Counted from the first letter of the stretch, positions 1,385-23,612 are shown. The stretch: DNA of 64,000 nt from a virus (IMGVR_UViG_3300008952_000019:1-64000); one strand, 5' to 3'. Notes: generated from the sequence alone by a model not told the origin. Translations and numbers: made by a program.

Positions 1385-2120
1385 GCCGTCGTATTTTAAG
1401 AAAAAGATCATACATTTTTTGTAAAGGTAATCCGGGTCGTAATGATTTTAAAGTTGTTGTTGCCTTGGCATAATCTTCTAATTGTGTAGTAAGAGGTATT
1501 TGTTTAATAGACACATTTTTATCTGTAACAAATCTTACGTAACACAACGGATCTCCCCTTTTAATATCGATAACTGCATTATCTGTAACAATTTCATAAG
1601 CAAAATCCAATGGACGAACCCAACTATAGATATTAAATGCTCCACATATACTTCTTAAATATTTAAAATAAGGTAGTTTATGCATGTGTAAAAAAGGAGA
1701 TACTTGTTCCATATGCAAATCTTTTTCGTCTGTTACAAATAATTGGGGGAAAGAAAAGCTAACCAATGGATTATTATTTTTATTTAATTTCAATCTACCA
1801 TTAAATTTTCCATCCGGTGTGTCATCTGCTTTATAATCTCCGCTCCATTCGTGTTTTCTTTCATCAAACACTATATATTGACTTGTAATATTTTCTTTGT
1901 TTACAGTTATTTTTGCATCTGTATTGCTTACTTTTTTATATGCAAATTTAACATGCAAGGGAGATCGTAAAACATACCAATTTTTTAAATAACTAGTAAA
2001 TGCAGGGCAAAATCTAAACGCAGCATCTATATCTTTATATACGTCTGTATATAATGATTCTGGTTCAGTATATGCAAGTGCAGTTTCAGCTCTTGCTGGT
2101 GTCCATCCTACTTCAATCAT
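1371..2120 (-). CDS. Unknown protein, possible paralogue of the gene at 36145-36873
   Basis: A 249-aa soluble protein without signal peptide or membrane segment; I do not recognise a named family with confidence. It has an N-terminal CPAF motif followed by a hydrophobic strand (YVLRSPLHVKF), and a C-terminal half with alternating strands ending in a conserved-looking DIKRGDPLCYVRF element. The protein at 36145-36873 shows the same order (CPG...GYIVPMWHDLEI, then FIKAGTPIAHLIPL), so the two may be diverged members of one beta-rich family, perhaps DUF6065-like; this is tentative. The ATG overlaps the stop of the DUF6445-like oxygenase gene by 8 bp, which points to one transcript with the oxygenases. 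It may work with, or present a substrate to, those enzymes (inference). Confidence 0.6.
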   Translation of the reverse strand: MIEVGWTPARAETALAYTEPESLYTDVYKDIDAAFRFCPAFTSYLKNWYVLRSPLHVKFAYKKVSNTDAKITVNKENITSQYIVFDERKHEWSGDYKADDTPDGKFNGRLKLNKNNNPLVSFSFPQLFVTDEKDLHMEQVSPFLHMHKLPYFKYLRSICGAFNIYSWVRPLDFAYEIVTDNAVIDIKRGDPLCYVRFVTDKNVSIKQIPLTTQLEDYAKATTTLKSLRPGLPLQKMYDLFLKIRRPKLL

Positions 2121-2871
2121 CTTGTGGTTTTAATTCTACTTCAAATTCAGATTCTAAAAAACAAACTTGGGCTATTCTAGGATAATCTTTAAATGCATTA
2201 TCTGTGTGATATGCTGCGTGAAATAAATATCCAGGGTATAATATGCATCTATTATATGCCATTGGTATTACTTCTTCTAAAGCCCAATACCTATCCCAAT
2301 CATCATGATAATAAACAGATCCATCTTCTGCAGGCATAAATGCTTCGGTACCAATAACGTGATCTTCTAATTCATTATCTTCATCTACTAATCTAATATC
2401 ATTTGCATATTTTGATCTATATATACCAGTTCCGCCGTTGCATTCTTCATTTGTATTAAAAAATATAGACGCCGCTACGGTATTTAATCCGTCTGTATGT
2501 ACTCTATTTCCTACTGCATTTACTGGTTGATCTTCTATCCATTGAAAACAGTTTGATATAAAAGGATATGTTTTATCTACTAATGTAAAATCATAATAAT
2601 GTGATACGATGCTATTAATGACATAAACAAAAGGTGGTTCATCAAAAAATGACATCGAATGCCTACAGTCGTAATATTGCTTAAAATTTAATGTATCGGG
2701 AGTATGTTTCCATATGGGCACAGGAGAAGAAAGAATAAGATCTTTTATATTATCAGGTTTTTTATAAAAATTATCTATAATTAATATAAGAGAATCATCT
2801 GCTAGTTTAACTTTTTGAATATTTAATTCTTCGTTAATTGCAAATAATTCTAATGGTTTAAATCGTTTCAT
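2113..2871 (-). CDS. DUF6445-like putative 2-oxoglutarate/Fe(II) oxygenase
   Basis: Predicted cupin-fold non-haem iron oxygenase of 252 aa. Visible features are HTD in RVHTDGLN (the HxD iron ligands), followed about 18 residues later by a GGTGIYR motif, a distal His in PGYLFHAAYH, and an Arg in YPRIAQVCF suited to binding 2-oxoglutarate. This order and the Tyr/Pro-rich C-terminus recall the DUF6445 family, which in bacteria is often found beside tryptophan halogenases. I chose the ATG at 2871: the ORF extends to 2919, but that extension (a run of lysines) lies wholly inside the upstream gene, and a purine-rich AAGAAG lies before 2871. The start overlaps the upstream gene by 14 bp. The substrate is unknown; hydroxylation of a protein or small molecule is likely from the fold. 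Confidence 0.72.
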   Translation of the reverse strand: MKRFKPLELFAINEELNIQKVKLADDSLILIIDNFYKKPDNIKDLILSSPVPIWKHTPDTLNFKQYYDCRHSMSFFDEPPFVYVINSIVSHYYDFTLVDKTYPFISNCFQWIEDQPVNAVGNRVHTDGLNTVAASIFFNTNEECNGGTGIYRSKYANDIRLVDEDNELEDHVIGTEAFMPAEDGSVYYHDDWDRYWALEEVIPMAYNRCILYPGYLFHAAYHTDNAFKDYPRIAQVCFLESEFEVELKPQDD

Positions 2872-3535
2872 TTTTTTCTTTTTCTTCTTTAGTCGCGGAT
2901 CCCCATACATCACAACCAATGTTAAATGTTATACCATATTTTGTTTCTTTTTTTATAATTTGATTTGCTTGATGATATAACCAACCTGGCCACAGTAATA
3001 CAAGACCTTCTCTACTCTCATAAGTCATTACTTCTTGTTTATATTGATTTAAACTATATAAAGTTAATGAAGAAACATCATTTAGATAATATATACCTGA
3101 TATAAAACTATTTGCATGATTATGTATATCATGATAATTATATTGTTCTGTTATATTAACCCAACAACTCTGTATCCATACTTCTTTTCGATGATCTAGT
3201 CCTTGTGTTGCTCCTTCTTTATGCATCATTTGTTGATTAAGACCATTGTCTGCTAGTAACTCATCTGCATAAAATTGTGCTCGTTTTAAGATCTCTGATA
3301 TTAATAAAGAAAATTTAGAATATACTGGATTTTCTTCTTCATCTTTAAGACGAATATGAATATCATCTATTGTATAGTATGATGTATAACCAAATGGAAA
3401 TTTTCTAGGACAAGTTGCCCTTCCTTCTATATCTAATTCTTTTATTTCTTCACATGCTTTAATTAATTCAGAGTTGTCTATATCATCTATATAATCTTTA
3501 AAAATAGTTATAGGAAATATATCTTCAAGTGGCAT
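2858..3535 (-). CDS. TIGR02466-like putative 2OG-Fe(II) oxygenase
   Basis: A 225-aa protein resembling the phage-associated putative 2OG-Fe(II) oxygenases of the TIGR02466 type. The family-like core is W.N....YN.HDIHNHANSFISG.YYL, where the closely spaced histidines should include iron ligands, followed by a strand-rich segment and LLWPGWLYHQAN, which supplies the distal His. The usual Arg that binds the 2OG carboxylate is not obvious; KKETKYGITFNIG stands at the place where family members have R.SISFN, so activity needs checking. It starts at the ATG at 3535, overlapping the previous gene by 11 bp, and overlaps the DUF6445-like gene downstream. Two different predicted oxygenases in tandem suggest sequential or paired hydroxylations (inference). 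Confidence 0.75.
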   Translation of the reverse strand: MPLEDIFPITIFKDYIDDIDNSELIKACEEIKELDIEGRATCPRKFPFGYTSYYTIDDIHIRLKDEEENPVYSKFSLLISEILKRAQFYADELLADNGLNQQMMHKEGATQGLDHRKEVWIQSCWVNITEQYNYHDIHNHANSFISGIYYLNDVSSLTLYSLNQYKQEVMTYESREGLVLLWPGWLYHQANQIIKKETKYGITFNIGCDVWGSATKEEKEKNETI

Positions 3536-3935
3536 CGTAGTATGCTGACATTAATGTTATTTTATTATCATCGTCAAATTCTATTATTAATTGAGGATGT
3601 TTAAGATTACTACTAGTATCAAAATCTTTTTCGGCTATTAACTTATTACCTATTTCTGTTATTGTGGCACTCTCCGGAATCCCATTTTCGTCTTCTTCTG
3701 GTGGTTCGTCGGGACCATTTTCGGGTTTTGCTACATACTTTCCTCTGTTAGTTCGTAAAGCATTAGTAGAAAATTTTGTTACATCTTGTCCAGAAACATG
3801 AATCTGGCCTTCACTAAAATTAACTGTCCTATCTTTAAAATAATTTAAAAATTCTTCATTTTCGTCTTCAGTAAAATTACCCGCACCTTTATTTAGTAAT
3901 ATCCTGACTCTCTTGAAAATCTGTTTCTTGGTCAT
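3525..3935 (-). CDS. Unknown small acidic protein
   Basis: A 136-aa protein that I do not recognise. It has a basic N-terminus (MTKKQIFKRVRI), a central acidic proline-rich linker (PDEPPEEDENG at about residues 77-87) and a C-terminal half ending with short hydrophobic strands (PQLIIEFDDDNKITLMSAYY). There is no signal peptide or membrane helix. It overlaps the gene upstream by 47 bp and the oxygenase gene downstream by 11 bp. The upstream overlap is long, so the start at 3935 is uncertain, but no later ATG keeps a reasonable protein. Its place between oxygenase and fibre genes suggests a virion accessory or chaperone, without direct evidence. Confidence 0.55.
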   Translation of the reverse strand: MTKKQIFKRVRILLNKGAGNFTEDENEEFLNYFKDRTVNFSEGQIHVSGQDVTKFSTNALRTNRGKYVAKPENGPDEPPEEDENGIPESATITEIGNKLIAEKDFDTSSNLKHPQLIIEFDDDNKITLMSAYYDAT

Positions 3936-4668
3936 ATCCTATTAACTCCCATGCATCTCTATATTTTTCTGAAGGCAATTCGTCAACATTAAATACTTCT
4001 GAATATGCCCATTTATTTTTTTCTGGTATGTAAGATAATTTAGCAATTAATTCTTCTAATTCTATTCTTAAATTTACTGGTGTTATAATTATAACAGAAT
4101 TATCTTGTTTTTTCAATAAAATTCTTTTATTTGCATATTTTAATTTAAACATTTCTTCTTTTTTACTATAACTATTTTCTCCACTTATAGAATATATTAT
4201 TTTTTGAGATTGCTGATGCCAACCATAAAAATAATTATAATTTTCATTTTTATCTAATATATCAGGTTGTGGAATAAATTTATTATTCCACGCCGAAGTG
4301 TTTAGAATAAAAGAAACATTAAAACCACTCAATACTCTAGTAGATATAAAAGGCCCAGCTCCTAATTCACACCCTAAAACTTCGGTTTCAGGATCTATAT
4401 TATCTAAAGCATCGTATGTTTTTTGAAATATAGGGTCATGTGATTTATAAGGTAAAACATTTGGCCAATATCTATCTATATCGGCTATTGTTTCTACTTC
4501 AGTTAAATCTACTTTAAAATCTTTAAAATATTTTTGTAATTCAATTAATCTATCATTATCTTCTTCTTTTATTTCTATATCTAATTTTTCTATTTCTTTA
4601 TTTAAAGAAGACTGTAAATTTTTTTGAAATATATTTTTTGCTTTTTCTATATTAATTTGTATAGGCAT
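3889..4668 (-). CDS. Unknown protein with charged N-terminal helix
   Basis: A 259-aa protein with no family I can name. The first 60 residues are rich in Lys, Glu and Ile and should form a long helix or coiled coil (MPIQINIEKAKNIFQKNLQ...), a start seen in several phage tail-associated proteins. The middle holds a GCELGAGPFISTRVLSG segment and an aromatic stretch (YNYFYGWHQQSQ). The C-terminus is helical and acidic. The ATG at 4668 is one base from the stop of the 851-aa fibre gene upstream, so it is probably co-translated with that structural gene. A fibre-assembly or chaperone role is possible from the position only. Confidence 0.55.
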   Translation of the reverse strand: MPIQINIEKAKNIFQKNLQSSLNKEIEKLDIEIKEEDNDRLIELQKYFKDFKVDLTEVETIADIDRYWPNVLPYKSHDPIFQKTYDALDNIDPETEVLGCELGAGPFISTRVLSGFNVSFILNTSAWNNKFIPQPDILDKNENYNYFYGWHQQSQKIIYSISGENSYSKKEEMFKLKYANKRILLKKQDNSVIIITPVNLRIELEELIAKLSYIPEKNKWAYSEVFNVDELPSEKYRDAWELIGYDQETDFQESQDITK

Positions 4669-4669
4669 T

Positions 4670-7225
4670 TTACCACCATTTAATAATAGTTACATGATTT
4701 GTGGTAACAGGCGAAGTTCCGCCCGGGGACGGAGCACTAGCATCTATAATACCTGTCATAGAAGCTCTAACAAGATCTCCTGCTTGATTTCTTTGTAATA
4801 TGTTTGCTCTTGTATAATATAATGTATGATTATCCCATGCATGAGGTAAAGGATAATTAGGAAATACAGTTGCCCAGGTACCTTCAAAATATTCGTTGTT
4901 CCAATATTTAGTTTGTAAAGTACTAGTTGCTGAAGTTTCTTTTGTTTGCGATACTGTCATTGGATCAAAATCTGCATCTGTACCGGTACCAAGATCTACA
5001 TTAGTGGCATCATTTTCTAATCGCCAAGTATCAACATCTCCTTGTTTATCAGTAAGGGCCCATGTCCAGTACGCTACTTCTTTTCTATGGGAATTATTGT
5101 CAAAAATTTCAGTTTCGGCTCTATCTTCGTATCTAGTACCATATCTATATTCGTATCTATATTCGTATCTATACTCTTGTCGTGCCGAAACTCTATATGT
5201 ATATTCTGATCGAGTAGTACCTCTTGCCACATATCTACCTTGAGCTCTTCGAGACAATTCGTGTCGAGATCTCCACCACATCCATCCGTCTCTCCATCTA
5301 AACCAACCATCGACATATCTGTATGCGTCTCGATAAGCATAACGAGTTTCAGCTCGAGCAGTTGCACTATATCTATACTCTAGTCTAGCGGTGGCTCTAG
5401 CAGTAGCCCTAGCGGCATTTCTTTGTATTAATCGTTGTGATTGCCTTTCTGTATGTCTAGATACACTTGTTTGATAACTAATGTCATTAACATCTACTGT
5501 TGTATCTAGCTGTGTATACGAAAACAAAGGAGTCGAAGTTAGTTCTGCATCTACTTTGTCAGATTCTGCTTTGAATTTGTCATATGTCATATCTTCAATA
5601 TAATCATTAACATCTATGGCATCTAATATTAACCAATCAGTAGTTATTCCGCGAGTAGTTCGCTGAGACATTAAATTTATGTATGCTTTGTATTCTTCTA
5701 TAAACGATTTTACACCATCGGATGTAATCCTAGTTTTATTATCTAAAGTAAATGTGTAATTAGAATATGTATAGGGCAATTTATTGAAACCGTATACTTC
5801 GCCTAACTCTATTTTGTCTAATGTAGTATCTAAAAAACTACCTAATTCTTCTGCTACTGTTTTAAAATCTACAGTGGTTCCGCCTGTTCGGTAATCAACT
5901 ACCTCTTCAACGTCAGCAACAAAATGTATACTAGGCGTAAGCGGTCCTATATCATATTTAATTTTACCTATATGTTGTACCGTTCCATCAGTGTACAAAT
6001 GATCTTCCCAATTACCATGCGGTGTTGCAGCATTTTCGGTTGAACCATTTGTTCTCCAACAATGCCCGTACTTACCATACGAATCATCCGAATATAAACC
6101 ATCATAATCGTTAAATTCAGAAGTGCTTGAACCTGAAGTACAAGGATTCATAGCACCTAAACCTGTAATCGGAGGTTCAGGCTGATTAGACGATTGGGTA
6201 TCTGCGTGAACTGTTAATCCTACACGAATATTTTGAGGAAGAGAATGAGGTATCTGAATTAACATATAACCATTTGCATTCTTAAATTTTATGCCTGTTT
6301 TCCAAAAATAATTTTTACCTGTAAAAGAACCTGACCCCGGATCGGAGTTATGAAAAGTAGCACCATTTAATCTACTTAATACTTCAGGATAGTTACCAGG
6401 GCTTGTATTTGCTACCGGATCCACAAAATGATTTTGGGATGCAGTAAATTCTGTTGAGTATGCTGGAGAATTGGTAGTTTTAACTCCAGCATTCCATTGT
6501 ATAATTTGTCTCCCCCCTATATTACCTTCTACTGTTCTAAACACCCAGCGATAATTATAACCAACATTAGGTGTATGATTATTGAACACATTATAAGGAT
6601 AAACGCTACGAGATTGTGCTTGTTGCGTTTCTGACGAAAATGCTGCATATCCTCCCAACCATCCTCCCCAATATCCAGATTTAGTATATTTTATATCTGT
6701 CATAGGATGTAAAGTACTACCTTGCCTAAAACCAGTATTAGAAAAAAATAATACAATTTTTTCTGGATTTAAGTTTTCGATTTCCCACGTATATTGTTGA
6801 CCTGAAGAATGTTTAATAAAAAAACCATCATTGAAATCAAAAGTACAATGTACCTCTCCTTGCCATGTTTTTTCGCTACCGGAACCTATATCGATAGTTT
6901 TTTCTACAATCGGTATTGGGTTTTCGTCATCTATGACATTTCCGTTATACAATCGAACTTTCATTCGAGATTGAGTCCAGCCACTATTTTGATCATATAA
7001 ACCAACTACTTCAATATGTTCGGATCTAACATACCATGTTAATTTTGATAACATACTATCGTTAGGAGTACCAAAAAATGCTTGCCTAAATTTATGATTA
7101 TCATAAAAATCTAATTGATAAAAAGATGCTGGATCCCATTGTTGACTGTTAGTTTGAGTGTTAGGATCAAAATAATCTTTGTAAGAAATATGAACTCTTT
7201 CTGCTTGTCGAATTTCTCTAGACAT
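4670..7225 (-). CDS. Large virion/tail protein with Arg/Tyr-rich tetrapeptide-repeat region
   Basis: An 851-aa predicted tail or adhesin protein. Residues 1-580 look like a beta-rich structural protein with many Trp, Tyr, Asn and Gly. Residues about 588-707 form an extraordinary region with an Arg roughly every fourth residue (units such as AARATARATAR, YRYEYRYEYRY) and a Trp cluster (WFRWRDGWMWWRSR) in its middle. The last 140 residues return to ordinary fibre-like composition and contain RASMTGIIDA, close to the NASMTGIITV end of the 463-aa protein at 9791-11182. The start ATG overlaps the stop of the gene upstream by one base (TAATG). No enzymatic domain was recognised. The basic aromatic region might bind an acidic polymer such as surface polysaccharide or DNA (inference). 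Confidence 0.75.
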   Translation of the reverse strand: MSREIRQAERVHISYKDYFDPNTQTNSQQWDPASFYQLDFYDNHKFRQAFFGTPNDSMLSKLTWYVRSEHIEVVGLYDQNSGWTQSRMKVRLYNGNVIDDENPIPIVEKTIDIGSGSEKTWQGEVHCTFDFNDGFFIKHSSGQQYTWEIENLNPEKIVLFFSNTGFRQGSTLHPMTDIKYTKSGYWGGWLGGYAAFSSETQQAQSRSVYPYNVFNNHTPNVGYNYRWVFRTVEGNIGGRQIIQWNAGVKTTNSPAYSTEFTASQNHFVDPVANTSPGNYPEVLSRLNGATFHNSDPGSGSFTGKNYFWKTGIKFKNANGYMLIQIPHSLPQNIRVGLTVHADTQSSNQPEPPITGLGAMNPCTSGSSTSEFNDYDGLYSDDSYGKYGHCWRTNGSTENAATPHGNWEDHLYTDGTVQHIGKIKYDIGPLTPSIHFVADVEEVVDYRTGGTTVDFKTVAEELGSFLDTTLDKIELGEVYGFNKLPYTYSNYTFTLDNKTRITSDGVKSFIEEYKAYINLMSQRTTRGITTDWLILDAIDVNDYIEDMTYDKFKAESDKVDAELTSTPLFSYTQLDTTVDVNDISYQTSVSRHTERQSQRLIQRNAARATARATARLEYRYSATARAETRYAYRDAYRYVDGWFRWRDGWMWWRSRHELSRRAQGRYVARGTTRSEYTYRVSARQEYRYEYRYEYRYGTRYEDRAETEIFDNNSHRKEVAYWTWALTDKQGDVDTWRLENDATNVDLGTGTDADFDPMTVSQTKETSATSTLQTKYWNNEYFEGTWATVFPNYPLPHAWDNHTLYYTRANILQRNQAGDLVRASMTGIIDASAPSPGGTSPVTTNHVTIIKWW
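5142..5177 (-). repeat. 12-bp tandem repeat encoding EYRY units
   Basis: Two perfect copies of TATCTATATTCG (plus-strand reading) followed by a third copy with mismatches. Read on the coding strand they give EYRY units at about residues 683-694 of the 851-aa protein. The 12-bp length keeps the frame, so copy-number change would lengthen or shorten the Arg/Tyr region without a frameshift. Confidence 0.85.
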
Positions 7226-9111
7226 TAAATATACTCAAGTTGAAATGTTTGAAAATTAGTTGCCATTTCTGTGCATGTATTTGTCCAACTATTTATTGTA
7301 GGCTGCACCATTTTTATTCTAGCTAAAACTCTAATAGGTGCTCCAGATGATGCTACATCTGAATACAATATACCTTTTACAGAATTAACTCCAGAAGATG
7401 GAAATATAGAAATTGGTTGTAATCCACCTTCATCTTTAACATATTCTGCAGAAATTGCTAACTTAACTGTTTCATTTGCCAAATCTTGGAGCCATCCATA
7501 AACATAAAGTGTCATATCTTCAGCATTTGTATATCCTAATACTTGACCTGCAGGTATTGCTAATGAAAACGAAGATGTTATTTCTATGACGTGTATTTTA
7601 CCTTTGGTAGCATCGGGATCTCTAAATATTATTCTTGCAGGACTTAATACAGATAAAATTGCATCTTGATAATTTCTTAATTCAAGTGTGTATATTCCAG
7701 AAGATAATGTTTCTACAAATGAATAATTTTCTTTAGCATTAGGCCATAATCCGCCTAACCATTCTACGTCTTCTGTTGATGTAGGAGGTGGAGACCATAT
7801 AAAACCTGTGCCTGCCGGATTTTGTGTTAAATAATGTCCTGGACTTCCGGCATTATCTATTATTACTTCATTAATACCAACAGAATCATTCTGCATCATA
7901 GATAAAGAAACATAATCATTACCTAAAATAACTGTATTACTACTTAAATCTAATGTATTTGCTAATTTAGGTACAGTAATAGAACCATTTAATATTTGAG
8001 TACCTGTTATATTATTAGCCGGAAGAGTAAAATTAGTATTTGTAATTGTAAATGCTGTTGCTCCATTAATTGAAGTTAATATATCAGGTGCATTTAATAC
8101 AGTTGTTATACCAGTAAAAGAAAGTTGTCGTTCTAATTTATCTGCGGTTATTGAATAATCTTGTAATTTGTCTGTGCCAATACTATCATCTGCAAATGTT
8201 GTATTAGACATTGTACCAGTAATCAATCCACTTAAAACAAAATTAGAATAGTCTACTTGTGTAAGTTGAAAATTGCCCGAGCCGTCTGACTCTAAAAAGT
8301 AATTTTGACTATGACCAGGATCAGAACTATTTTGTATTTTTAATTCATTATATCCAACACTTGCGGCACCCGGTGCGTCATTTGCAAACTGTAAATTAAC
8401 AGGAGTCGAACCTTTAAGAAATTCAAATCTATCTAATACCTCATTCCATTGAATTTTTGCTACATCATTGGTCGGGCCCCTGTTAATATCTATTCCGGCA
8501 ACTCCTGCTGAAACTCCAGGACCAGTTTCGTCATCATTAATAACTATTACATTATCTTTAACAAGTAAATTTTGAGTATCAACTTCAGTGGTTGTTCCTT
8601 CTGTTTTTAAATTACCCGTTACAGTAATATTTGTAACTGTCAAATCTGTAGGAAATGTTATTGTTGCCGATCCTGATAAATCTAATGTTGTAGATAATTT
8701 AGGTCCTGTTATAGTACCATTTGCAATATCACTATCTGTTATTGTTAAATTTGTAATCATATCGCTTGTTATTGTATTTGAAGCAATATGATTTGCAGGT
8801 ATAGGACCTGTAATAGCACTATAATTTATGGGATACGCACCAGGAGCTTCCCAAGATAATGCTCCTGTACTAGAAACTTGCAAAAATTTATTTGCATCAC
8901 CTGATGTAAAAGTTAAATTTAATTCTCTACTAGTAATACTATTTTCAGGTAATGTAAGAGTATGAGATGATATATCAAGAGTTGTATGTATTTTATCTGA
9001 TGTAATAGAACCAGTTGCTAAATCTACCGATTGAATAGAAGCATCGTTTATTTTGGCACCTGTTACAGCACTATCTGCTAATAAATTTGTAGTTATTTTA
9101 GTTAATGGCAT
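7225..9111 (-). CDS. Tail fibre protein, 628 aa
   Basis: A modular tail fibre protein. Residues 1-180 contain repeats typical of phage fibres (ADSAVTGAKI, NGTITGPKL, NSITSREL), thin beta units that trimerise into a shaft. Residues about 180-240 hold a TEVDTQNLLVKDNVIVIND...GVAGIDINRG module also recognisable in the fibre gene at 18426-19169. The C-terminal 190 residues (from EDVEWLGGLWPNA) look like a globular fibre end seen in other marine phage fibres, with LYVYGWLQDLANETVKLAIS and a late VRVLARIKMVQ-type strand. I chose the ATG at 9111 because it overlaps the upstream stop (TAATG); six more N-terminal codons are open. The ligand is unknown. Confidence 0.82.
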   Translation of the reverse strand: MPLTKITTNLLADSAVTGAKINDASIQSVDLATGSITSDKIHTTLDISSHTLTLPENSITSRELNLTFTSGDANKFLQVSSTGALSWEAPGAYPINYSAITGPIPANHIASNTITSDMITNLTITDSDIANGTITGPKLSTTLDLSGSATITFPTDLTVTNITVTGNLKTEGTTTEVDTQNLLVKDNVIVINDDETGPGVSAGVAGIDINRGPTNDVAKIQWNEVLDRFEFLKGSTPVNLQFANDAPGAASVGYNELKIQNSSDPGHSQNYFLESDGSGNFQLTQVDYSNFVLSGLITGTMSNTTFADDSIGTDKLQDYSITADKLERQLSFTGITTVLNAPDILTSINGATAFTITNTNFTLPANNITGTQILNGSITVPKLANTLDLSSNTVILGNDYVSLSMMQNDSVGINEVIIDNAGSPGHYLTQNPAGTGFIWSPPPTSTEDVEWLGGLWPNAKENYSFVETLSSGIYTLELRNYQDAILSVLSPARIIFRDPDATKGKIHVIEITSSFSLAIPAGQVLGYTNAEDMTLYVYGWLQDLANETVKLAISAEYVKDEGGLQPISIFPSSGVNSVKGILYSDVASSGAPIRVLARIKMVQPTINSWTNTCTEMATNFQTFQLEYI

Positions 9112-9782
9112 TATCCAAATACCCTCCAAGTACTTCCATTATATACTAGACCAAAATTTAAAACAGCGGTATTGACAACTAAGTCGTCAGCAACATCCAT
9201 AATTGTACTACCATTTCTACTTACAGTTAATGGATAATCTTGAAAATGTCCGCCTGCATCAACAACTCTGATAGTATCGTTTTGGTTAGGTGAAGCAGGT
9301 AATGTCATTGTAACTTGTCCATTTGTTGTATCCACTTGAACTGATTGCCCTGCATATGCCGTAAATGGGGAATCAGTATCGCTTTTATAATCAAATCCAC
9401 CGGGATCAAACGAAGTAAAACTTAAACCGCCTGCGCCATTTGTTGTTAATGCTTGACCTATTGTACCATCAGTGACATTTAATTCATCTATTCCTATTGT
9501 ATTTGCACTTACTGTTGTAATATTAATAGGCGATGCTTCAATATACTTTACTAGTACTCTAGATCCGGACGGCGGTGCTTCAGTAAATACAACTTTTGTT
9601 CCGGCAGTATTGATTCCATATGCCGCAGTAGGTTCTTGTGTTAGACCGTCTATAGAAACAAATAGTTGTTTTTGATCTACTACTGTAAATGTTAAAGTAA
9701 ATTCAGTATCACTGCCAGTACCTGTAAAAATATCTTGTTGTACTTCGGCAGTATCTATTTGCTTCTTCTTTAAAAATTTCAT
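9111..9782 (-). CDS. Tail fibre/virion protein with RNG C-terminal module
   Basis: A 223-aa fibre protein. Residues 15-85 form a TGTGSDTEFTLTF...FVSIDGLTQEPTAAY...VVFTEAPPSGSRVLVKY module that recurs in several fibre genes of this window. The C-terminal 85 residues form a second recurring module (VQVDTTNGQVTMTLPASP...IRVVDAGG...VSRNGSTIMD...YNGSTWRV), also found at the ends of the proteins at 34846-35268 and 11184-15044. Nine bases separate it from the 463-aa gene upstream, and its stop overlaps the ATG of the 628-aa fibre gene. It is likely a short fibre or collar-type component. Confidence 0.78.
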   Translation of the reverse strand: MKFLKKKQIDTAEVQQDIFTGTGSDTEFTLTFTVVDQKQLFVSIDGLTQEPTAAYGINTAGTKVVFTEAPPSGSRVLVKYIEASPINITTVSANTIGIDELNVTDGTIGQALTTNGAGGLSFTSFDPGGFDYKSDTDSPFTAYAGQSVQVDTTNGQVTMTLPASPNQNDTIRVVDAGGHFQDYPLTVSRNGSTIMDVADDLVVNTAVLNFGLVYNGSTWRVFG

Positions 9783-9790
9783 AATTTATC

Positions 9791-11182: not shown

Positions 11183-11183
11183 A

Positions 11184-14100
11184 TTAATTCTCCGCTATTA
11201 CCCAACCATTAGTAGCATCATAATAAACTAATGTAAGACCTGCTCTTGATGAAGTAATTTCTAAATCTTGGGCAGTTCCTTGGATATTTTTACCATTTCT
11301 TGCTACTGTTATTTTATTTGTATTACTATTGCCTGCTGCATCTACTACCCTGATATAATTACCTGTTACAGGACTTGCCGGCAATGTAATAGTTACTGTA
11401 TTACTTGTAGTATCAACAAGATATTGGGCACCTACAGTTGCTGAAAGATTTGATGTTGCTGTTGTCCAGCCGGCTTTTGCAATTAAATTACCAGGAACAG
11501 TTAATGTGCTACCGTCATAATAATAACCTAATTCATCACCTTCACCTATTGTAAATGAATAATTATGTGTAGTAGAAGTATAACCATTACTAGCAGTAAC
11601 AGTAAAACTATATACATTCGATGTTTCATATGTACCTAATGTACCTGTTAATTTTCCTGTACGTTTACTAAAAGTTAATTCAGAAGGTAAATTACCAATT
11701 AATGTATAATCTGTCTCGCCTATATTTTCATTTGCCCAAGATGTTATTGTTGCTGATAAATCTTGATTTATAACAACACCTGAATAAAATGTAGCAAAAT
11801 TAGTCGCTGAAGTTGCCCAAGTTGTATTCCAATCTGCTATTTGGTAATTAGGACTAAAACCTATTCTATTAGGTGTTATAGTTGTCGGAGTATATTCTAT
11901 ATGAAATAAATTACCTTGTCCTATAGGCGCCGCTTGAACAGTAACACCATCAGGATTATTCCATTTTAATCGCCATTTTCTTGTGTTATCGTTAGCGCCT
12001 CCGTTTTGGTAATCTACATTCCAGGCACCTGTAACTCCTGCGTGTCCGCTGACAGTTACACCATCCATTTTTAATAAGCCATCTGTCGAATCATGAGTTG
12101 TTAAATTAGCTGGCGTCGATGTTGTTCCTGTTTTTAATACCGATGCATATACATTACTGCCACCTATTTGTCCGTTTGCATTTGCTTGTCGATTTAATAA
12201 AGTTATTTCTACTTGATCAGATGTAGTATTACTAGTAACAACATGCCAATCATTTAGTACCCAAGGATCTGTTCCTAAAATACTACCTGGATCCATACCT
12301 ACAGGATTCATAGAATAAATATCAGGATCTAATCCTGCCCCTCCTGTTGTTCCGTTTAATTGTATCCAATCGTCTGCCTTAAGACCATGATCGGGCCATG
12401 TTATCATTATAGAACCAGAACCTGATGTAGTCTTTAACGGATTATCAGGTAATTTTATTTTAGATGCTATTTTAGTAATTTTATCTATCGCAGTTGCTCC
12501 ATATGTATTCCATGTTGTTACAGACGAAGGCACAGATACTGCATTATTTGAAATATTTTGAGCATGGACATAACCATAAAATTCTTCAGCCAGTACATAC
12601 GGAAACATAGGTTCTCCGGAATATGCATTTCCTGATGTTTCAATTGTTGCAAAATATGCATAGGTTCCGTTAGGAAATTCAGGTGTTACGCAATCTCTAC
12701 CATTATATTGATCTAAGTGTCTATTAGATACTGTACTATCATATATATAATCTTCTATAAAAGTACCTAACGGATTAGATCCATCAACTGCTGGTCCCCA
12801 TGTTGTATTACTTTCAGGAGAATAAGAACCTGCGGTAACTCTAACAGAACAAGTTCTTGCACCGTCAGTAGAAGGATCATATTCACTTGCAGTTTTTAAC
12901 CTCCATCCTGGTATCATTTTTGTAATACCACTAGATGAATTATTTGCAGTAGTATGACCAAAAGGACCATATATGGGATAACCATCTAATGCCCAACCTA
13001 TAATTGGCGAATGATTAGGAGTACCAGATGTATATATATCATTTAATTCCGATCGTAATGTAGGAGAAGCTGTTTTATAATTGTATCTAAAATCTGAAGT
13101 ACAAAAACCATAATTTGTGTCCTTAGTACTACCATCTTTATCAAATGCATTTTTATGCCATACATTACCACCGGTATTAGTTTCCATTTGTGCATTAGCG
13201 GTATGCCAACTATCGTTATCTCTTTTATTAAAAATAGGCACACCATTTACACTTATTCCGACCATACCAACCGGAGTTACAGTTTTAGTACCTGTATTTT
13301 TAAGAGGAGTTCTTGCTATTGCTTTAATATAACTTTTATCAGCAGGAACATATCCTGCTCCTGATGATCCAGGAAACGGACCTGTGGCATGTTCTGCTAT
13401 ACCTGAAAAATATGTATAAATGTAATCATTATCATATTTTATTGTTTGTATTAATGCATTACCTGTGTCAGATACTCCTCCGACACTATCTGTATGTGAT
13501 CCTTTTTCTCCTCGTTGTCTGATCCAAGACGTAAAATGTAAACTAGAACTAGACGATGCGATTAACCAATTTTTAATTTCTTCCGGAGTTCCGCCTGTGT
13601 TTGCTGCTTCTATTCTATTTTGATGTATTTTATTGCATACAACACCTGCAATTAAAGGAGACGAATAAGATGTTCCTGCTTGACCCGTAGTTGTACCCCA
13701 ATTACCTCCTCCAGCATCATACCAACCCATAGTATTTAAATCTTGCCCAGGTGCCGAAATTGTTACTGATGACCCATAATTAGAAAAATAAGCCATTTCC
13801 CATTTTCCGCCCGAAGCCTGTACACCATTTTCATTATAACCACCTAACGAATCGAATTTTAATGCACCAACAGTAATTGTATTTGCTACGGTATTTTCCC
13901 AATGAGGACCTGACATTCTAGCAGGTTCTATTACTCTTGCATCTATAGGTCCTTGAAATTGTGCTTCTAAATTAACTATTTTATTGAATCCATTTGCGGC
14001 TGCTATACAAACATGAACACCAGCCTCTGTTAATTGACGCATTACATCATCTGTATCATCAGTGGCATCATTAGGATCATCAAAATCTACAAACAAATCA

Positions 14101-15044
14101 TTTGGAGCAACAGGCGAATTTGCAATAGAATAATTAACAACAGAAGGTACATCTGTTCCTTTACCGTTATGCCATGTAAGAACTGCATTTAATCCTAGTA
14201 AAATATCTGATGTCCAACCTGAATTTGCTCCAGTTCCTAACAAATCCATTACTTTACAAGCAAATATATTTGCTTGTTTTGCTATTCCAGCAAATCTTCC
14301 TGCAGCAAATTGGGCACAATGAGTACCATGACCTTGGGTATCTTCATTATTCCAATCCTTATTGTTAGCCATTGCAATAGTACCATAAATAGGATGATTA
14401 TATTGGCCTCCTTGAGTTAAATTAAAACCTGGTAATGGCTTAACTCTATTACTGTCAATATCATTTAACATATCAGGATGAGCAGACCCTATTGTAGGAT
14501 TTAAAACAGCCGGTGTCCATGTGCTATTACCTAATCCTACTGCCTCGCATCCATATTGATCTTTATATGCAGTATTACCACATGTACCAAACCCACATTG
14601 AGTAGTCCCTTGACTAGCTCCTGCTCTAGCACCAGCAACGCCAGAATCAACAATAACTAGATCAACATTATCCAATCCATCATATTTGTAACTATATTCA
14701 CCATTTGAATTGGCGGAAAAATCCTCTTTAGACATAGCATCTAAATGCCAATAATAATAAGAACCACTTAATGCTAATGCGGTTTGTTTGCCGCTGGTAA
14801 AATTTTCTATAATAGGAGCATCTGTTGTAGTAGTACCCATATCAGCACATGCTATTTGTTGTTCGCTATCTTTTCTAATTCTTATTATATCTGTATGATC
14901 TATCCAAGTTTGTAATTCGACATCATCGTCTGTATCTGCAATTATTCTATTTAAGTTATCTAATTTTACAGGATTAGAAATGTTAAGATCACTAATAACT
15001 TCATCTAATGTCGGCCCTTCTTTTATTTTTAAAATATATCTCAT
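11184..15044 (-). CDS. Subtilisin-like serine protease fused to YHYH and fibre domains
   Basis: A 1286-aa mosaic. Residues about 125-500 are a peptidase S8 (subtilase) domain with the complete triad in order: Asp133 in DLVIVDSG, His239 in GHGTHCA and Ser459 in GTSYSSP, with oxyanion Asn351 in AAANG. Residues about 570-820 match the YHYH domain (IIGWALDGYPIYGPFG, then HLDQYNGRD...PNGTYAYF). Residues about 1100-1168 resemble a putative-Ig/cadherin-like repeat (NLPSELTFSKRTGKLTG), and residues 1207-1286 are the RNG fibre-end module. Residues 1-70 resemble a protease prodomain. There is no signal peptide, which suits a virion-borne enzyme. The ATG at 15044 overlaps the upstream stop (ATGA). It may cleave host surface proteins or process fibres (inference). 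Confidence 0.85.
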   Translation of the reverse strand: MRYILKIKEGPTLDEVISDLNISNPVKLDNLNRIIADTDDDVELQTWIDHTDIIRIRKDSEQQIACADMGTTTTDAPIIENFTSGKQTALALSGSYYYWHLDAMSKEDFSANSNGEYSYKYDGLDNVDLVIVDSGVAGARAGASQGTTQCGFGTCGNTAYKDQYGCEAVGLGNSTWTPAVLNPTIGSAHPDMLNDIDSNRVKPLPGFNLTQGGQYNHPIYGTIAMANNKDWNNEDTQGHGTHCAQFAAGRFAGIAKQANIFACKVMDLLGTGANSGWTSDILLGLNAVLTWHNGKGTDVPSVVNYSIANSPVAPNDLFVDFDDPNDATDDTDDVMRQLTEAGVHVCIAAANGFNKIVNLEAQFQGPIDARVIEPARMSGPHWENTVANTITVGALKFDSLGGYNENGVQASGGKWEMAYFSNYGSSVTISAPGQDLNTMGWYDAGGGNWGTTTGQAGTSYSSPLIAGVVCNKIHQNRIEAANTGGTPEEIKNWLIASSSSSLHFTSWIRQRGEKGSHTDSVGGVSDTGNALIQTIKYDNDYIYTYFSGIAEHATGPFPGSSGAGYVPADKSYIKAIARTPLKNTGTKTVTPVGMVGISVNGVPIFNKRDNDSWHTANAQMETNTGGNVWHKNAFDKDGSTKDTNYGFCTSDFRYNYKTASPTLRSELNDIYTSGTPNHSPIIGWALDGYPIYGPFGHTTANNSSSGITKMIPGWRLKTASEYDPSTDGARTCSVRVTAGSYSPESNTTWGPAVDGSNPLGTFIEDYIYDSTVSNRHLDQYNGRDCVTPEFPNGTYAYFATIETSGNAYSGEPMFPYVLAEEFYGYVHAQNISNNAVSVPSSVTTWNTYGATAIDKITKIASKIKLPDNPLKTTSGSGSIMITWPDHGLKADDWIQLNGTTGGAGLDPDIYSMNPVGMDPGSILGTDPWVLNDWHVVTSNTTSDQVEITLLNRQANANGQIGGSNVYASVLKTGTTSTPANLTTHDSTDGLLKMDGVTVSGHAGVTGAWNVDYQNGGANDNTRKWRLKWNNPDGVTVQAAPIGQGNLFHIEYTPTTITPNRIGFSPNYQIADWNTTWATSATNFATFYSGVVINQDLSATITSWANENIGETDYTLIGNLPSELTFSKRTGKLTGTLGTYETSNVYSFTVTASNGYTSTTHNYSFTIGEGDELGYYYDGSTLTVPGNLIAKAGWTTATSNLSATVGAQYLVDTTSNTVTITLPASPVTGNYIRVVDAAGNSNTNKITVARNGKNIQGTAQDLEITSSRAGLTLVYYDATNGWVIAEN

Positions 15045-17176
15045 GCTAATACCTCTGTTGTGTTAACCGCAGCAAACCATTTTATATTTTCTCCGCCTTT
15101 TCCTTGGACTCTAATACGTAATGCATTATTAGCATTTAATGCATCTACTGTGCAATCATATGTAGAATCTGTTCTACCTAATATTGTTTTCATAATTGTT
15201 CCAAGAATAGATGTTGTACCGGTTGTGTTTATAATACATCCTTTAAAATTCCATGATGCAGTTTTTTCATTGCCTGCCGACATACCATATCGCTGTGCTA
15301 CTATCATAATATCAAATGCTATTGCAGTACCATTTGCTAATACTAATCTAGAATCAGTAACATTTTTAATAAATATTTCTGTTAAATCGGCATTATCTAC
15401 CGCTGTAATTCCTTTATATAAATAAATTCCTTGTTTAGTATCGCCAGTTGAAGAAAGATTTGCACCAACAGTTTGAATGATGTCTGTGTCAGTTGTTATT
15501 GATTGACCATCTATTTTTAAATTATCTACAGTCAACGATCCGTTTATACTGTGATCTCCTGCTTCGTCTAATAATTTTATCCATGCAGTATTATGTGAAT
15601 AATACGGAGTAGCAGAATCGTCGGCAATAGCAAACATACCGTCATATGTAGTTGCATTAGGAAGACCTGCAAAATTTGTAAAAGTATTACTAAAAAAACT
15701 TTTACCTGTAGTTACAATATTAGCAGCACCAAATTCAGCATGACCAGTTCCTGCTGGTCTAATAACAATATTGCCATTAGTTGTTGATGTTGTAATTTCT
15801 CTTGCTAATACATCTAAATCGCCGCCTAACTGAGGTGTAAGATCGTCTTTAATATCCGATAAACCTGAACCGCCACCGCCACCGCCTCCCGTCGGAGCAT
15901 CTACCCATTGGACACCTGAACCTGTAGATTCTAACATTTGTCCTGAGGTACCATAGTTTGATGGCGTGTCTGTTAATCCTGTTAATGTTGTTGTAACTGT
16001 TGCTTCGTTCGAATTAATCCATTTACTACCATCCCACCTTAAAATTTGGTCACCTTGTGCTGATGATATTGTTACATCAGATAATGCATTTATACTTAAC
16101 CCAGAAATACTAGTTAAATAGCCTACTGCCCCATGGTCTCCCCATCCGTGGGCAGTATCCCAATTGGTTGCATTGTCGGTTACTATACTATAACTTCCGG
16201 CAACAGATCCTCGTTTCATTAATCCAACTGAGGTAAAATCACTATCATCTAAATATGTTTTTGTTCCTAAAACAGTATTAACTCTATCATCTGTATAATA
16301 TAAATTACTTGAGCCTTCGTCAATATTATCTGTTGTTGCAACTAATGATATAGTACTTGTAACTTTATTCCAACTTAAAGGAGCAGTTGCAACAATATCT
16401 CTAAAATCTATACCTGTTGCATTACTATTAACTCTTGCAAAAAAGTTGGCTTTGTTTGTATAATTAGTCGGAGTATCAGATAAACCAGTTAAAGTGGTTA
16501 CTCCTCCTGAGCCACCACTTTTATCACCTATAATCCAATTACCATTACTATATTCTAATATTTTACCATTTGATGCTCCGGTAGTCACAACATCTGTCAA
16601 TCCTGATAATGTTGTACCCGAAGTAGATGTAGTAGGAATCCAATTTGTTCCATTCCATGCAAGAACTTGACTAACTGTGGGTGCAAGAGATGTTGTATCT
16701 ACATCACCCAAAGAATCAATACTACTAGACGAATTTAAATATAATCCTGCATGATTGCCCCAACTAAATGCGGTATCCCAACTTGTTATTTTTGTAGCAT
16801 TTATACCTGCTGCTACGTGAGCAGAAAATACAGGATCTGTTTCAGCAGGAGCAGAATATGTATTATTAATAGTTATTGAATCATTTGAATTATCAGTTGT
16901 TATAGTAACATTAGAACCAGCAACAAATGTTAATGTATCAGTTGCAGTATCTGCCACTAAATTTGATTGGCCTGACACAGAAACTGTTTCAAATAAATTT
17001 TGGATTGTACCTCCACCACTACTAGATGCAGATACTAACTTTCCACCAGCAGTAGAACCGTCTCCTACATATAATTTAGGATTAGATTCGCTAACGTCAA
17101 TTACTATTAATTCACCTATCGAAGGAGTGTAATTTGTTCTATTACTAGCTGTACCTCTTTTAAACTGAATTGCCAT
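15041..17176 (-). CDS. Tail fibre protein with Mtd_N-like N-terminus, 711 aa
   Basis: A modular fibre. Residues 1-50 (MAIQFKRGTASNRTNYTPSIGEL...LYVGDGSTAGGKL) match the major-tropism-determinant N-terminal type of domain, which attaches fibres to the particle. Residues about 60-108 are one copy of the VSGQ module. The middle carries about five LxDV...GQxLxWNGxxW units and WGNHAGLYL/WGDHGAVGYLT linkers. The C-terminal 250 residues begin with LTPQLGGDLDVLAREI and end in a globular beta domain. Its ATG lies 20 nt downstream of an AATAAATA octamer, so it may start its own late transcript. Confidence 0.83.
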   Translation of the reverse strand: MAIQFKRGTASNRTNYTPSIGELIVIDVSESNPKLYVGDGSTAGGKLVSASSSGGGTIQNLFETVSVSGQSNLVADTATDTLTFVAGSNVTITTDNSNDSITINNTYSAPAETDPVFSAHVAAGINATKITSWDTAFSWGNHAGLYLNSSSSIDSLGDVDTTSLAPTVSQVLAWNGTNWIPTTSTSGTTLSGLTDVVTTGASNGKILEYSNGNWIIGDKSGGSGGVTTLTGLSDTPTNYTNKANFFARVNSNATGIDFRDIVATAPLSWNKVTSTISLVATTDNIDEGSSNLYYTDDRVNTVLGTKTYLDDSDFTSVGLMKRGSVAGSYSIVTDNATNWDTAHGWGDHGAVGYLTSISGLSINALSDVTISSAQGDQILRWDGSKWINSNEATVTTTLTGLTDTPSNYGTSGQMLESTGSGVQWVDAPTGGGGGGGSGLSDIKDDLTPQLGGDLDVLAREITTSTTNGNIVIRPAGTGHAEFGAANIVTTGKSFFSNTFTNFAGLPNATTYDGMFAIADDSATPYYSHNTAWIKLLDEAGDHSINGSLTVDNLKIDGQSITTDTDIIQTVGANLSSTGDTKQGIYLYKGITAVDNADLTEIFIKNVTDSRLVLANGTAIAFDIMIVAQRYGMSAGNEKTASWNFKGCIINTTGTTSILGTIMKTILGRTDSTYDCTVDALNANNALRIRVQGKGGENIKWFAAVNTTEVLA

Positions 17177-17195
17177 TAATTATTCCTTCATCAAA

Positions 17196-18076: not shown

Positions 18077-18086
18077 TCATAATTCC

Positions 18087-18401: not shown

Positions 18402-18418
18402 AGATGTCTCTTTTACTA

Positions 18419-18426
18419 TATTTATT
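18419..18426 (-). promoter_or_regulatory. Candidate T4-type late promoter (AATAAATA)
   Basis: Minus-strand AATAAATA just upstream of the 104-aa gene, at the end of the 247-aa fibre gene. One mismatch to the T4 late octamer; spacing to the ATG at 18401 is suitable. Confidence 0.45.
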
Positions 18427-19169
18427 TAAAATAAGAGAGCGTTAACTAATGCTTTTCTATCAACATATGCTTTATTTGCAGCATGATCGTCTTGGGTAGG
18501 ATCTCCTGAAAGTGTTAATGCTCCTGTCATTGTATCTCCGACTTTTAATACATTAGAAGAGGCTGCACCAGTTACGGCGCCTTCTATATTTGTTAATATT
18601 GTTTCCCCTCCTGTTGTCCATTTATCTGTCGAATCATCCCATAAAAATGATTTATCTGTTTCTGTTCCTCGTTCTACAGTAAATCCTGCTGAACCCGAGC
18701 CTCCGTCTACTCCTGCTCCTTGTTCATTAGAATTTACAGTAAGAGTGTTTGATTGTACAGATAAAGAAGAAAATACATTACTTACTGTTTGGTCTTGTCC
18801 GCCTAATATTTGTAATGTACCTGAAACAACAAGATTACCTGGTGTTTGTAAATCGCCTGTTAATTTGCTGGTACTAATAGATTTGTCAGGTATAGTATGA
18901 AGTTGGACAGGTCTAGTTAAATGTAAAATTTGTATTTGTGTAGTACTTGCAGGAACATTTAATATTTTTAAATTTGAATCTTCGTTTAACGTATAATCTA
19001 ATTCAGGTTGTTGCGTAAGTCCGTTAAAATTTACAAGAATTGCTCTTGAAGTTAAGGGTTTCGGTACACTTAACGCATAAATAGAAGTAACACCATCCGA
19101 GGTGTAACTATCAAATGTAAAAGCAGTATTGTGTAATCTATTTTCAACATCAAAACCAATATAAGCCAT
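18426..19169 (-). CDS. Tail fibre protein, 247 aa
   Basis: A fibre protein. Residues 20-90 form a VNFNGLTQQPELDYTLNEDSNLKI module of the same kind as in the 223-aa protein at 9111. Residues about 125-200 carry a TVNSNEQGAGVDGG...GFTVERG module shared with the 628-aa fibre at 7225. The end (GDTMTGALTLSGDPTQDDHAANKAYVD) is a classic phage fibre repeat found in lambda- and T4-like side fibres. It is the first gene of the minus-strand block left of the halogenase, with a perfect late-promoter octamer 22 nt upstream. Confidence 0.82.
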   Translation of the reverse strand: MAYIGFDVENRLHNTAFTFDSYTSDGVTSIYALSVPKPLTSRAILVNFNGLTQQPELDYTLNEDSNLKILNVPASTTQIQILHLTRPVQLHTIPDKSISTSKLTGDLQTPGNLVVSGTLQILGGQDQTVSNVFSSLSVQSNTLTVNSNEQGAGVDGGSGSAGFTVERGTETDKSFLWDDSTDKWTTGGETILTNIEGAVTGAASSNVLKVGDTMTGALTLSGDPTQDDHAANKAYVDRKALVNALLF

Positions 19170-19191
19170 TTTACTCTCGTTTAATTATTAA

Positions 19192-19199
19192 TATTTATA
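19192..19199 (-). promoter_or_regulatory. T4-type late promoter (TATAAATA) in divergent gap
   Basis: A perfect minus-strand TATAAATA in the 37-bp gap between the 247-aa fibre gene (-) and the halogenase gene (+). It points left and lies 22 nt before the ATG at 19169. Its last base overlaps the halogenase ribosome binding site (AAGGA at 19199-19203 on the plus strand). Confidence 0.65.
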
Positions 19200-19206
19200 A
19201 GGAATT

Positions 19207-20925
19207 ATGGAAAAGAAAAAAATCATCATCATCGGCGGGGGTACCGCTGGTGCTAGTGCAGCGGTATTTCTTCAGGCTAAATTAGGAAAAGCATGTGACA
19301 TAGAAGTATTAACATCAAAAAACATACCTATTGTCGGAGTCGGTGAAGCAACCGTAGGTAACATTAATCAATTTTTAGAAGCATGTGATTTAGAACCTGA
19401 AAAAATTTGTTTAGATGATGCAAGGGGCTCTATTAAATATTCTGTTCATTGTAAAAATTGGTACAAAGACAATCATTCTTATTTTACTCCAATCGGTTTA
19501 TTTGCTATGGAATATCATGATTTTTATACATTTGCTCGGCCTATAAAAGAATATTGGGAAAGTTGGTGCGGTTTAAATTTAGGACTTAACAGTAAAGCTC
19601 CATTTTTAAAACATGAATATTGGCATACAAATATACCTAAGGTATGGCGAGAATATGCATATAATATTGATGCAAGTTTATTAGGAAAAAAATTATTAGA
19701 TGTAGCAATTGAAAGAGGGGCAATAATAAATGATGTTAAAATTAGCGAAGTCAAAATTATAGATACTGATAAAATAGATTACTTGATCACAGATGATGGT
19801 AAAAAAATAGAAGGTGATTTTTTTGTTGATTGTAGTGGGTTTAAACGACTAATCCCTAATGCATGTGGTTATACTCCTAAAAAATTTAATGAGGATAATA
19901 AAAATAATAGAGCATGGGCAACAAGAATAGATTATGTAGATAGAACCGACGAATTATCCTATTTAAGTTGTGTTGAATGTCAAGCAATGGATGCAGGCTG
20001 GCGTTGGCAAATAGGTTTACGTGATAGAATAGGAACTGGTTATGTGTTTTGTACTGATTATATTTCAGAAGAAGATGCACTACAAGAATTTAAAGATAGT
20101 TTTGAAGGCGATAGAATTAAAGATGATCAGTGCCAATTAATTAAGTTTAACACAGAATGCTATGAAAAGCAAGCAGGTACTAACTGGATTACATGTGGTT
20201 TATCTGCAGGATTTGTAGAACCATTAGAAAGTACAAGTATATTTTTTATGCATAACAATTTAATGGCATTCTTGTCATTAATAAAACAAAATAGATTACC
20301 TAAAGATATTCAAATGTTAGGTATGGAAACATGGGATGTTAGTGACGAACCTGTTCATTATTTCTTTGATTGGAATAACGAAAAAATAGATTTATATAAT
20401 ACATATGCAACAGACACATTTAAATCTACAGTAAATTATGTAGGAGCTCATTACGCATTTAATAAAAATAATAAATCCAAATACTGGGACGATTGGGCAG
20501 AAAAAAGAGAAAAATATGTTAGTATCGGAAGTGAAGTAATGAATTACAAACAACAACATTTATTCTTTTCTAGGCCTGCATATAGCATATTAGCTGCAGG
20601 TAATAATATGGGGACGGAAATAGAAGGATGGGATTTATCAAAAGTATTTGTAAGTAAACGACAAGAAAGTGCTTGGGAATCCGGGCAACTTAAAACCGAA
20701 AGGGAAATTCTAGAAGACAGAACACCTAAGGAATATTTATATGTACTTAGAAATTATTTAGGTAGAATGACTCATCGAACATGGTTAAACGATATATTTA
20801 GTGACCACGCATATGATATTATAGATCAATACAAATGGTTAGATCATTATGAAGAATTAAATAAAGAAGAGTTATTATCATCTAAAAATTATATTCATAA
20901 TATGACGACAGATAATTTATCTTAA
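19207..20925 (+). CDS. Flavin-dependent tryptophan halogenase
   Basis: A 572-aa FADH2-dependent halogenase that should use O2 and halide to halogenate an indole or phenol ring. Visible features: the FAD-binding GxGxxG as IIGGGTAGASAA (residues 8-19), VGVGEATVGNI (43-53), the Lys of the HOCl tunnel as K77 in SIKYSV, and the catalytic Glu-Ser pair E341-S342 in EPLESTSI. The family WxWxIP motif appears as WRWQIG (265-270), with Gly instead of Pro. The length is slightly above the usual 510-540 aa. ATG 19207 follows AAGGA. It is the only plus-strand gene between 1.4 kb and the right edge, and no flavin reductase gene is visible. Substrate unknown; free tryptophan or a virion peptide are both possible. 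Confidence 0.9.
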   Translation: MEKKKIIIIGGGTAGASAAVFLQAKLGKACDIEVLTSKNIPIVGVGEATVGNINQFLEACDLEPEKICLDDARGSIKYSVHCKNWYKDNHSYFTPIGLFAMEYHDFYTFARPIKEYWESWCGLNLGLNSKAPFLKHEYWHTNIPKVWREYAYNIDASLLGKKLLDVAIERGAIINDVKISEVKIIDTDKIDYLITDDGKKIEGDFFVDCSGFKRLIPNACGYTPKKFNEDNKNNRAWATRIDYVDRTDELSYLSCVECQAMDAGWRWQIGLRDRIGTGYVFCTDYISEEDALQEFKDSFEGDRIKDDQCQLIKFNTECYEKQAGTNWITCGLSAGFVEPLESTSIFFMHNNLMAFLSLIKQNRLPKDIQMLGMETWDVSDEPVHYFFDWNNEKIDLYNTYATDTFKSTVNYVGAHYAFNKNNKSKYWDDWAEKREKYVSIGSEVMNYKQQHLFFSRPAYSILAAGNNMGTEIEGWDLSKVFVSKRQESAWESGQLKTEREILEDRTPKEYLYVLRNYLGRMTHRTWLNDIFSDHAYDIIDQYKWLDHYEELNKEELLSSKNYIHNMTTDNLS

Positions 20926-23600: not shown

Positions 23601-23612
23601 TCTAATTCCTTT

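Follow-up and report, generated by a model that had tools for sequence, protein, structure and literature searches.

A putative halogenase and an exchangeable oxygenase cassette in the tail-fibre region of a marine phage

We analysed a 64,000-nt stretch of the viral record IMGVR_UViG_3300008952_000019 (the window, to which coordinates refer unless another record is named), in which a putative flavin-dependent, tryptophan-type halogenase gene (19207–20925, plus strand) and a six-gene cassette with two oxygenase-type members (1371–7225, minus strand) flank a block of tail-fibre-like genes. The siting of the halogenase and the two oxygenases on either side of the block had been described in the first-pass annotation of the DNA and is borne out by tail-fibre or Mtd_N matches within the block. 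The IMG/VR record as a whole comprises 91,448 bases; its genes at 80–91 kb have the appearance of a T4-like head block, and its major capsid protein is nearest to those of Sinorhizobium phage Phosso (469 kb; 74%), Vibrio phage 2.275.O (349 kb; 69%) and Pseudomonas phage PA5oct (287 kb; 67%). We take the record to be part of a marine jumbo phage genome, a placement based on this one protein.

The first cassette gene (1371–2120) encodes a 249-aa phrog_17480 protein (E = 6e-18) with no assigned function. The second (2113–2871) encodes a DUF6445/phrog_1644 protein resembling 2-oxoglutarate (2OG)–Fe(II) oxygenases (PF20043, E = 1.4e-8, 35.3 bits against a cut-off of 24 over a partial profile; phrog_1644, E = 1.3e-31), in which an HxD..H..R pattern (H141-T-D143, H234 and R248) is invariant in three copies. 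Its start was first listed at 2919 and is probably 2871, because homologues begin at M17 of the longer call. The third (2858–3535) encodes a 2OG-FeII_Oxy_5 protein (PF13759, E = 2.6e-15, 57 bits against a cut-off of 27; TIGR02466 above its own cut-off), whose invariant metal-site residues, HNH at 138–140 and H188, align with those of its nearest solved relative, 2rg4. The two oxygenase-type proteins that the first-pass annotation had named are recovered by family profiles. The fourth gene (3525–3935; 136 aa) is fast diverging and belongs to no family, with 30–31% identity to its copies in two related records, L011 and L012. The fifth (3889–4668; 259 aa) matches no family above cut-off and is 58% identical to the L011 copy.

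The sixth gene (4670–7225) encodes an 851-aa protein in which Arg, Tyr and Trp make up as much as 50% over 60 residues, within residues of about 600–702. The L011 homologue keeps this composition (52% Arg, Tyr and Trp) and differs in sequence and length, and no match was found among cultured phages. From its gene place and operon we regard the 851-aa protein as a candidate adhesin, and as a candidate substrate of the neighbouring enzymes. Structure predictions for it (predicted local distance difference test, pLDDT, of 27 from a 2-row alignment) and for the DUF6445 protein (pLDDT of 27.6 from a 3-row alignment) were uninformative, in the latter case on the fold. The cassette frames overlap or abut one another and the fibre gene that follows at 7225–9129, which suggests that all seven genes form one operon.

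The fibre block includes this gene (7225–9129, minus strand; phrog_892 tail fibre), whose product has an exchanging C-terminal part from about residue 401. On the halogenase side, the tail fibre protein is encoded at 15041–17176 (minus strand; Mtd_N, and phrog_9729 tail fibre at E = 2e-37). The halogenase gene is the sole plus-strand gene of the block and stands between a conserved fibre-block gene on its left (18426–19169) and a conserved gene with no assigned function on its right (20922–21542), both on the minus strand. Beyond these come four consecutive minus-strand genes with similar N-termini (21630–28437; 656, 606, 474 and 517 aa), whose relatives are 62–73% identical. The neighbouring virion proteins had been described as unusually rich in Trp, Tyr and His. 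Against an average of 7.7% for these residues over the record, this is true of the 851-aa protein (12.5%) and of the four consecutive genes (10–14%), and not of the products of 18426–19169 (4.5%), 15041–17176 (5.6%) and 7225–9129 (4.9%). The block also contains a gene (11184–15044) whose fibre-like product combines a YHYH domain (E = 8e-34) with a subtilase-like stretch (a weak mycosin match) and has diverged to about 30% in three relatives that lack the cassette.

The tryptophan halogenase call of the first-pass annotation holds at the level of the family. The predicted protein matches PF04820 (E = 2e-71; 241.6 bits against a cut-off of 21) and phrog_2928 (E = 5e-82), and its matches in the PDB include VirX1 and tryptophan halogenases, the best being 5lv9 (E = 2.5e-49). 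In alignment, the GxGxxG motif for flavin adenine dinucleotide (FAD; here GGGTAG), the segment with the catalytic Lys (SIKYSV; K79 of PrnA) and that with the catalytic Glu (VEPLEST; E346 of PrnA) are intact, and the FAD motif and both catalytic residues are kept in all four jumbo-phage copies, as in the bacterial enzymes PrnA, RebH and the thermophilic Th-Hal (5lv9). The WxWxIP motif departs from the family pattern: all four jumbo-phage copies read WRWQIG, retaining Trp-x-Trp-x-Ile and replacing Pro with Gly, whereas the Pro is present in the other 24 phage halogenase copies compared. Because of this replacement, we file the protein as a family-level homologue only, a putative halogenase that differs from the bacterial enzymes also in being encoded in a phage fibre block. 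Among 28 halogenases placed in a tree, those of the jumbo phages make up a separate long branch. A conserved AAGGA box precedes the gene start. Halogenase-family matches in a search of a phage collection also include four Campylobacter phage records and two human faecal phage records.

Conventional roles, namely chlorination of free tryptophan by the halogenase, as when pyrrolnitrin is made, and DNA repair or 2OG signalling for the oxygenases, have been stated or suggested in papers on cyanophages (PMC2984593, PMC9964418, PMC3037559). At this locus we consider them very improbable: further pyrrolnitrin-type genes are not seen beside the halogenase, the change from WxWxIP to WxWxI-G is common to all four jumbo copies, and the cassette oxygenases appear to share an operon with fibre genes rather than repair genes. 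The antibiotic idea is, by the account of PMC2984593 itself, speculative.

Several lines of evidence bear on a link between these enzymes and fibre genes. First, linkage of the halogenase to the fibre block, set beforehand as a test, recurs in three other IMG/VR lineages: G001, G004 (G002 and G003 being nearly identical to it in this region) and G005. In each of them a halogenase, about 70% identical across the lineages, occupies the same slot as a single plus-strand gene between homologues of the left (71–76% identity) and right (54–56% identity) neighbours, and fibre gene order is kept on both sides, with the exception of 9791–11182, which has no counterpart. No small-molecule genes lie beside it, and neither the window nor the relatives have sugar or metabolite biosynthesis genes next to either the halogenase or the cassette.

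Second, the oxygenases constitute a swappable six-gene cassette that is present or absent as a unit. The three lineages above lack it: the homologue of the fibre gene at 7225–9129 comes immediately after a NUDIX gene, and these records, which are fragments, cover the expected cassette position. The nearer relatives L011 and L012, with a NUDIX gene 97% identical to that of the window, carry it, L011 with all six genes and L012 with the first four, after which the fragment ends. Unit behaviour therefore rests on L011 and L012, as few cassette relatives appeared in the viral scans. In these two records identity is 82–97% for most flanking genes and 71% for the next fibre gene; the cassette genes have diverged to 58–66%, and the 136-aa gene to about 31%. 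Between L011 and L012, the gene of the third cassette protein shows 0.11 nonsynonymous (dN) and 1.28 synonymous (dS) substitutions per site. The fibre gene at 7225–9129 is matched over its full length only in L011; G001, G004 and G005 match residues of about 1–400/440 and carry a different C-terminal stretch that is common to them. Because the full-length match occurs only with the cassette-bearing L011, the cassette and the fibre tip are exchanged together.

The proposal that halogenase and oxygenases are conserved jointly in relatives was not upheld, since three relatives have the halogenase without the cassette; one joint set in this virus group is rejected. The two are inherited separately and are therefore not established as one joint system. 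In G002 (L026–L023, contig reversed, joined 9053–11607) we also observed a heme oxygenase gene (PF01126, E = 1.4e-17) paired with a ferredoxin-dependent bilin reductase gene (PF05996, E = 3.6e-19), with 2OG oxygenase genes on both sides and a tail-sheath-like gene adjoining. Close to their conserved fibre region, the relatives also have a glutamine synthetase gene (by Pfam) and an ammonium-transporter-like gene (read by eye), at 775–1728 of L021 (G005) and 4135–5349 of G001, reverse-joined.

Third, the same enzyme classes recur at fibre loci of another phage family. We compared 18 cultured halogenase-bearing phages (cyanophages and a pelagiphage counted together), with cyanophage Syn10 in addition; the genomes are related to each other and were picked for halogenases. 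In about 11 of the 18, a halogenase or, in some, a pair of them comes directly or within a few genes after tail-fibre or fibre-assembly genes, the fibre identity in some of these genomes resting on gene order shared with annotated relatives. The S-SRM01 halogenase has a tail fibre gene on one side and the adhesin tip gene on the other, and in S-CREM1 nine 2OG/JmjC genes in a row start two genes past the halogenase. Across these related genomes, 46 oxygenase genes (phrog_81 and phrog_1644, among the matches listed) fall within 8 kb of 21 halogenase units where 14.7 would be expected, a count not reached in any of 20,000 random placements; this statistic measures clustering, not the number of independent origins. 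In the tree of 28 halogenases, the fibre-linked ones largely cluster, with 4 label changes compared with 9.6 for shuffled labels. The cyanophage runs of 2OG–Fe(II) oxygenases (phrog_81, phrog_1644, T4-GC 101/104/240 and others) resemble the window cassette in being drawn from the same families, often in tandem and adjoining fibre genes; the window cassette differs in lying in a jumbo-like phage and in including a private 851-aa protein.

The parallel extends to VirX1 of Syn10. The protein encoded at L155:7944–9536 matches PDB 6QGM (VirX1) over 530 of 530 residues. Upstream of its gene lie a second halogenase and two phrog_863 tail-fibre genes; downstream are 2OG_Oxy_5, JmjC_2, 2OG_Oxy_3 and DUF6445 genes, and the JmjC_2 family counts known protein hydroxylases among its members. 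VirX1 thus shares with the window protein its Pfam family and the company of fibre and oxygenase genes. The two are distant: the Syn10/syn9 locus matches the window halogenase at 29% over 71% of the query, and VirX1 has the WxWxIP-type Pro where the window protein, on its separate long branch, has Gly. According to a 2021 review (PMC8407142), VirX1 has a large, accessible active site and accepts a broad range of substrates; the review names no natural product for it. In the literature searched, which did not include the original VirX1 paper, no paper found linked VirX1 to fibres.

Fourth, the two families also meet in bacteria, as the first-pass annotation had claimed. In a family-level draw of 26 genomes around one Alteromonadaceae genome, DUF6445 occurs in 15, and a halogenase lies no more than 1.5 kb away at 11 of the 18 DUF6445 loci. 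Both families are those of the window; the genes are side by side in Alteromonadaceae and 16 kb apart in the window. Scans of bacterial contigs for halogenase relatives returned one Alteromonadaceae locus.

Such pairs, outside phages, speak against the idea that fibre-adjacent sites are merely insertion hotspots that gather exchangeable auxiliary genes with no functional tie to fibres. That idea draws on the hyper-variable regions described between structural genes of cyanophages (PMC2984593), on the unremarkable nearness of these enzymes to large open reading frames and on S-ShM2, in which petE and gnd also lie between fibre-module genes. It accounts poorly for islands that are mostly of one chemical class, such as the S-CREM1 run, for a halogenase slot held constant across lineages only about 70% identical, and for a cassette that swaps along with the fibre tip; we judge it rather doubtful.

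Alternatively, the enzymes might build or decorate a small molecule or a glycan, such as a secondary metabolite, a host surface polysaccharide or a glycan bound to the fibre. A role of this kind has been put forward by Iyer and others for a cluster in S-SSM6a that combines a halogenase with 2OG enzymes and carbamoyltransferases (PMC7824862). Heptose and epimerase genes are part of the near-identical cluster of S-SSM7, and at the Alteromonadaceae locus L133 the halogenase is near SapC and TonB-receptor genes. We regard this alternative as unlikely here given the lack, already noted, of sugar or metabolite biosynthesis genes beside the halogenase or cassette, and none are listed in most fibre-linked cyanophage islands.

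We tentatively favour a reading, itself short of probable, in which these are fibre-module-specific tailoring enzymes, probably acting on fibre or adhesin protein. What the comparisons support is a halogenase fixed in a fibre block, an exchange of the oxygenase cassette along with a fibre tip, and the occurrence of these enzyme classes beside fibre genes in a second phage family; these patterns, together with the clustering in cyanophages and the Alteromonadaceae pairs, are the grounds for the tailoring reading. Protein is preferred as the target because the enzymes follow fibre modules, JmjC_2 includes protein hydroxylases and the VirX1 active site is open. In this scheme, the tail-fibre modules of marine T4-related phages would bring their own oxidative tailoring enzymes: the halogenase would be a fixed resident of one fibre block, and the other five cassette proteins, two of them oxygenase-type (DUF6445 and 2OG-FeII_Oxy_5) and three uncharacterised, would travel with the Arg/Tyr-rich 851-aa protein and a fibre tip to match. 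Newly synthesised fibre or adhesin proteins may receive halogen or hydroxyl groups on their side chains, with the host cell supplying reduced flavin, 2OG, iron and halide; the modification could alter stability or receptor binding, and each enzyme set would be matched to its own fibre type. The wider claim, that marine jumbo-like phages and Kyanoviridae alike halogenate and hydroxylate their own tail-fibre proteins through fibre-module enzymes, and that VirX1 and the cyanophage 2OG runs serve this purpose in nature, seems on the unlikely side.

A number of observations weigh against the tailoring reading. The halogenase lies away from fibre genes in about 7 of the 18 cultured genomes, and neither halogenases nor oxygenases are nearer to large open reading frames, a proxy for virion genes, than random placement gives. 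The clustering may stem from few origins, because the genomes are related and were selected for halogenases. Halogenase and oxygenases are not co-inherited within this phage group, no modified residue is known, protein modification is deduced from gene context, and the place of the 851-aa protein in the virion is presumed. Virion protein data exist for the cyanophages S-SZBM1 and S-CREM1, and those of S-SZBM1 contain no long tail fibre protein. The earlier suggestion of a joint virion-modification system is accordingly split: the fibre linkage of the halogenase and the cyanophage and bacterial parallels remain, and the separate inheritance of halogenase and cassette counts against a joint system. 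So far, marine phage halogenases and 2OG oxygenases have been classed with the auxiliary metabolic genes and given speculative roles; the gene arrangement points to fibres as a concrete place to look. If correct, the tailoring reading would describe a new kind of virion maturation, the enzymatic halogenation or hydroxylation of receptor-binding proteins, and a source of protein-modifying enzymes.

Further along the window, a gene on the minus strand (36866–38503) had been interpreted as a U32-methyltransferase fusion. The gene is real and belongs to the conserved phage family phrog_1458 (E = 7e-160; equivalent to cyanophage T4-GC 354), with relatives in 123 cyanophage records at about 43% identity. 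The U32 part lacks support: the window protein has no Pfam match, and the Peptidase_U32 profile PF01136 is silent in the homologue-bearing G004, S-ShM2 and P-HM2. The methyltransferase part persists weakly through homologues, PF13578 scoring E = 1e-4 in P-HM2 and 0.088 in S-ShM2, below cut-off. No PDB sequence match was found for the phrog_1458, DUF6445 or phrog_17480 proteins. Together with the phrog_1409, phrog_1604 and phrog_1417 genes that follow (38451–41324, minus strand; PHROG matches; equivalents of T4-GC 353, 352 and 351), it reproduces over 36866–41324 the four families and order of the cyanophage fibre module T4-GC 354–351, which lies beside the tail fibre in P-HM2 and is also known from S-ShM2. 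The P-HM2 module slot, between the tail fibre gene and gp13, is occupied by a halogenase and oxygenases in Sf-CH11, Sf-FP1 and S-RIM44; because the same slot holds one or the other in these related genomes, fibre type and enzyme type may go together. The window phage departs from this pattern in having the module as well as the halogenase and DUF6445, whereas phrog_1458 is absent from all 20 genomes picked for halogenase or DUF6445, with a match in M. jannaschii only.

In S-ShM2 (L152, 4239–6915 and 9995–11785), T4-GC 353 and 354 are separated by three 2OG genes, one DUF6445-like gene and, after these, petE and gnd. A scan of the window for late promoters (TATAAATA) gave 9 matches, fewer than the 19 expected by chance, and is uninformative. 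Adjoining the phrog_1458 module is a gene for a DUF401 membrane protein (35295–36164; phrog_14035), 84% identical in G004, and the fibre region also contains a protein with a glucose/sorbosone dehydrogenase domain (62337–63839; PF07995, E = 2e-39).

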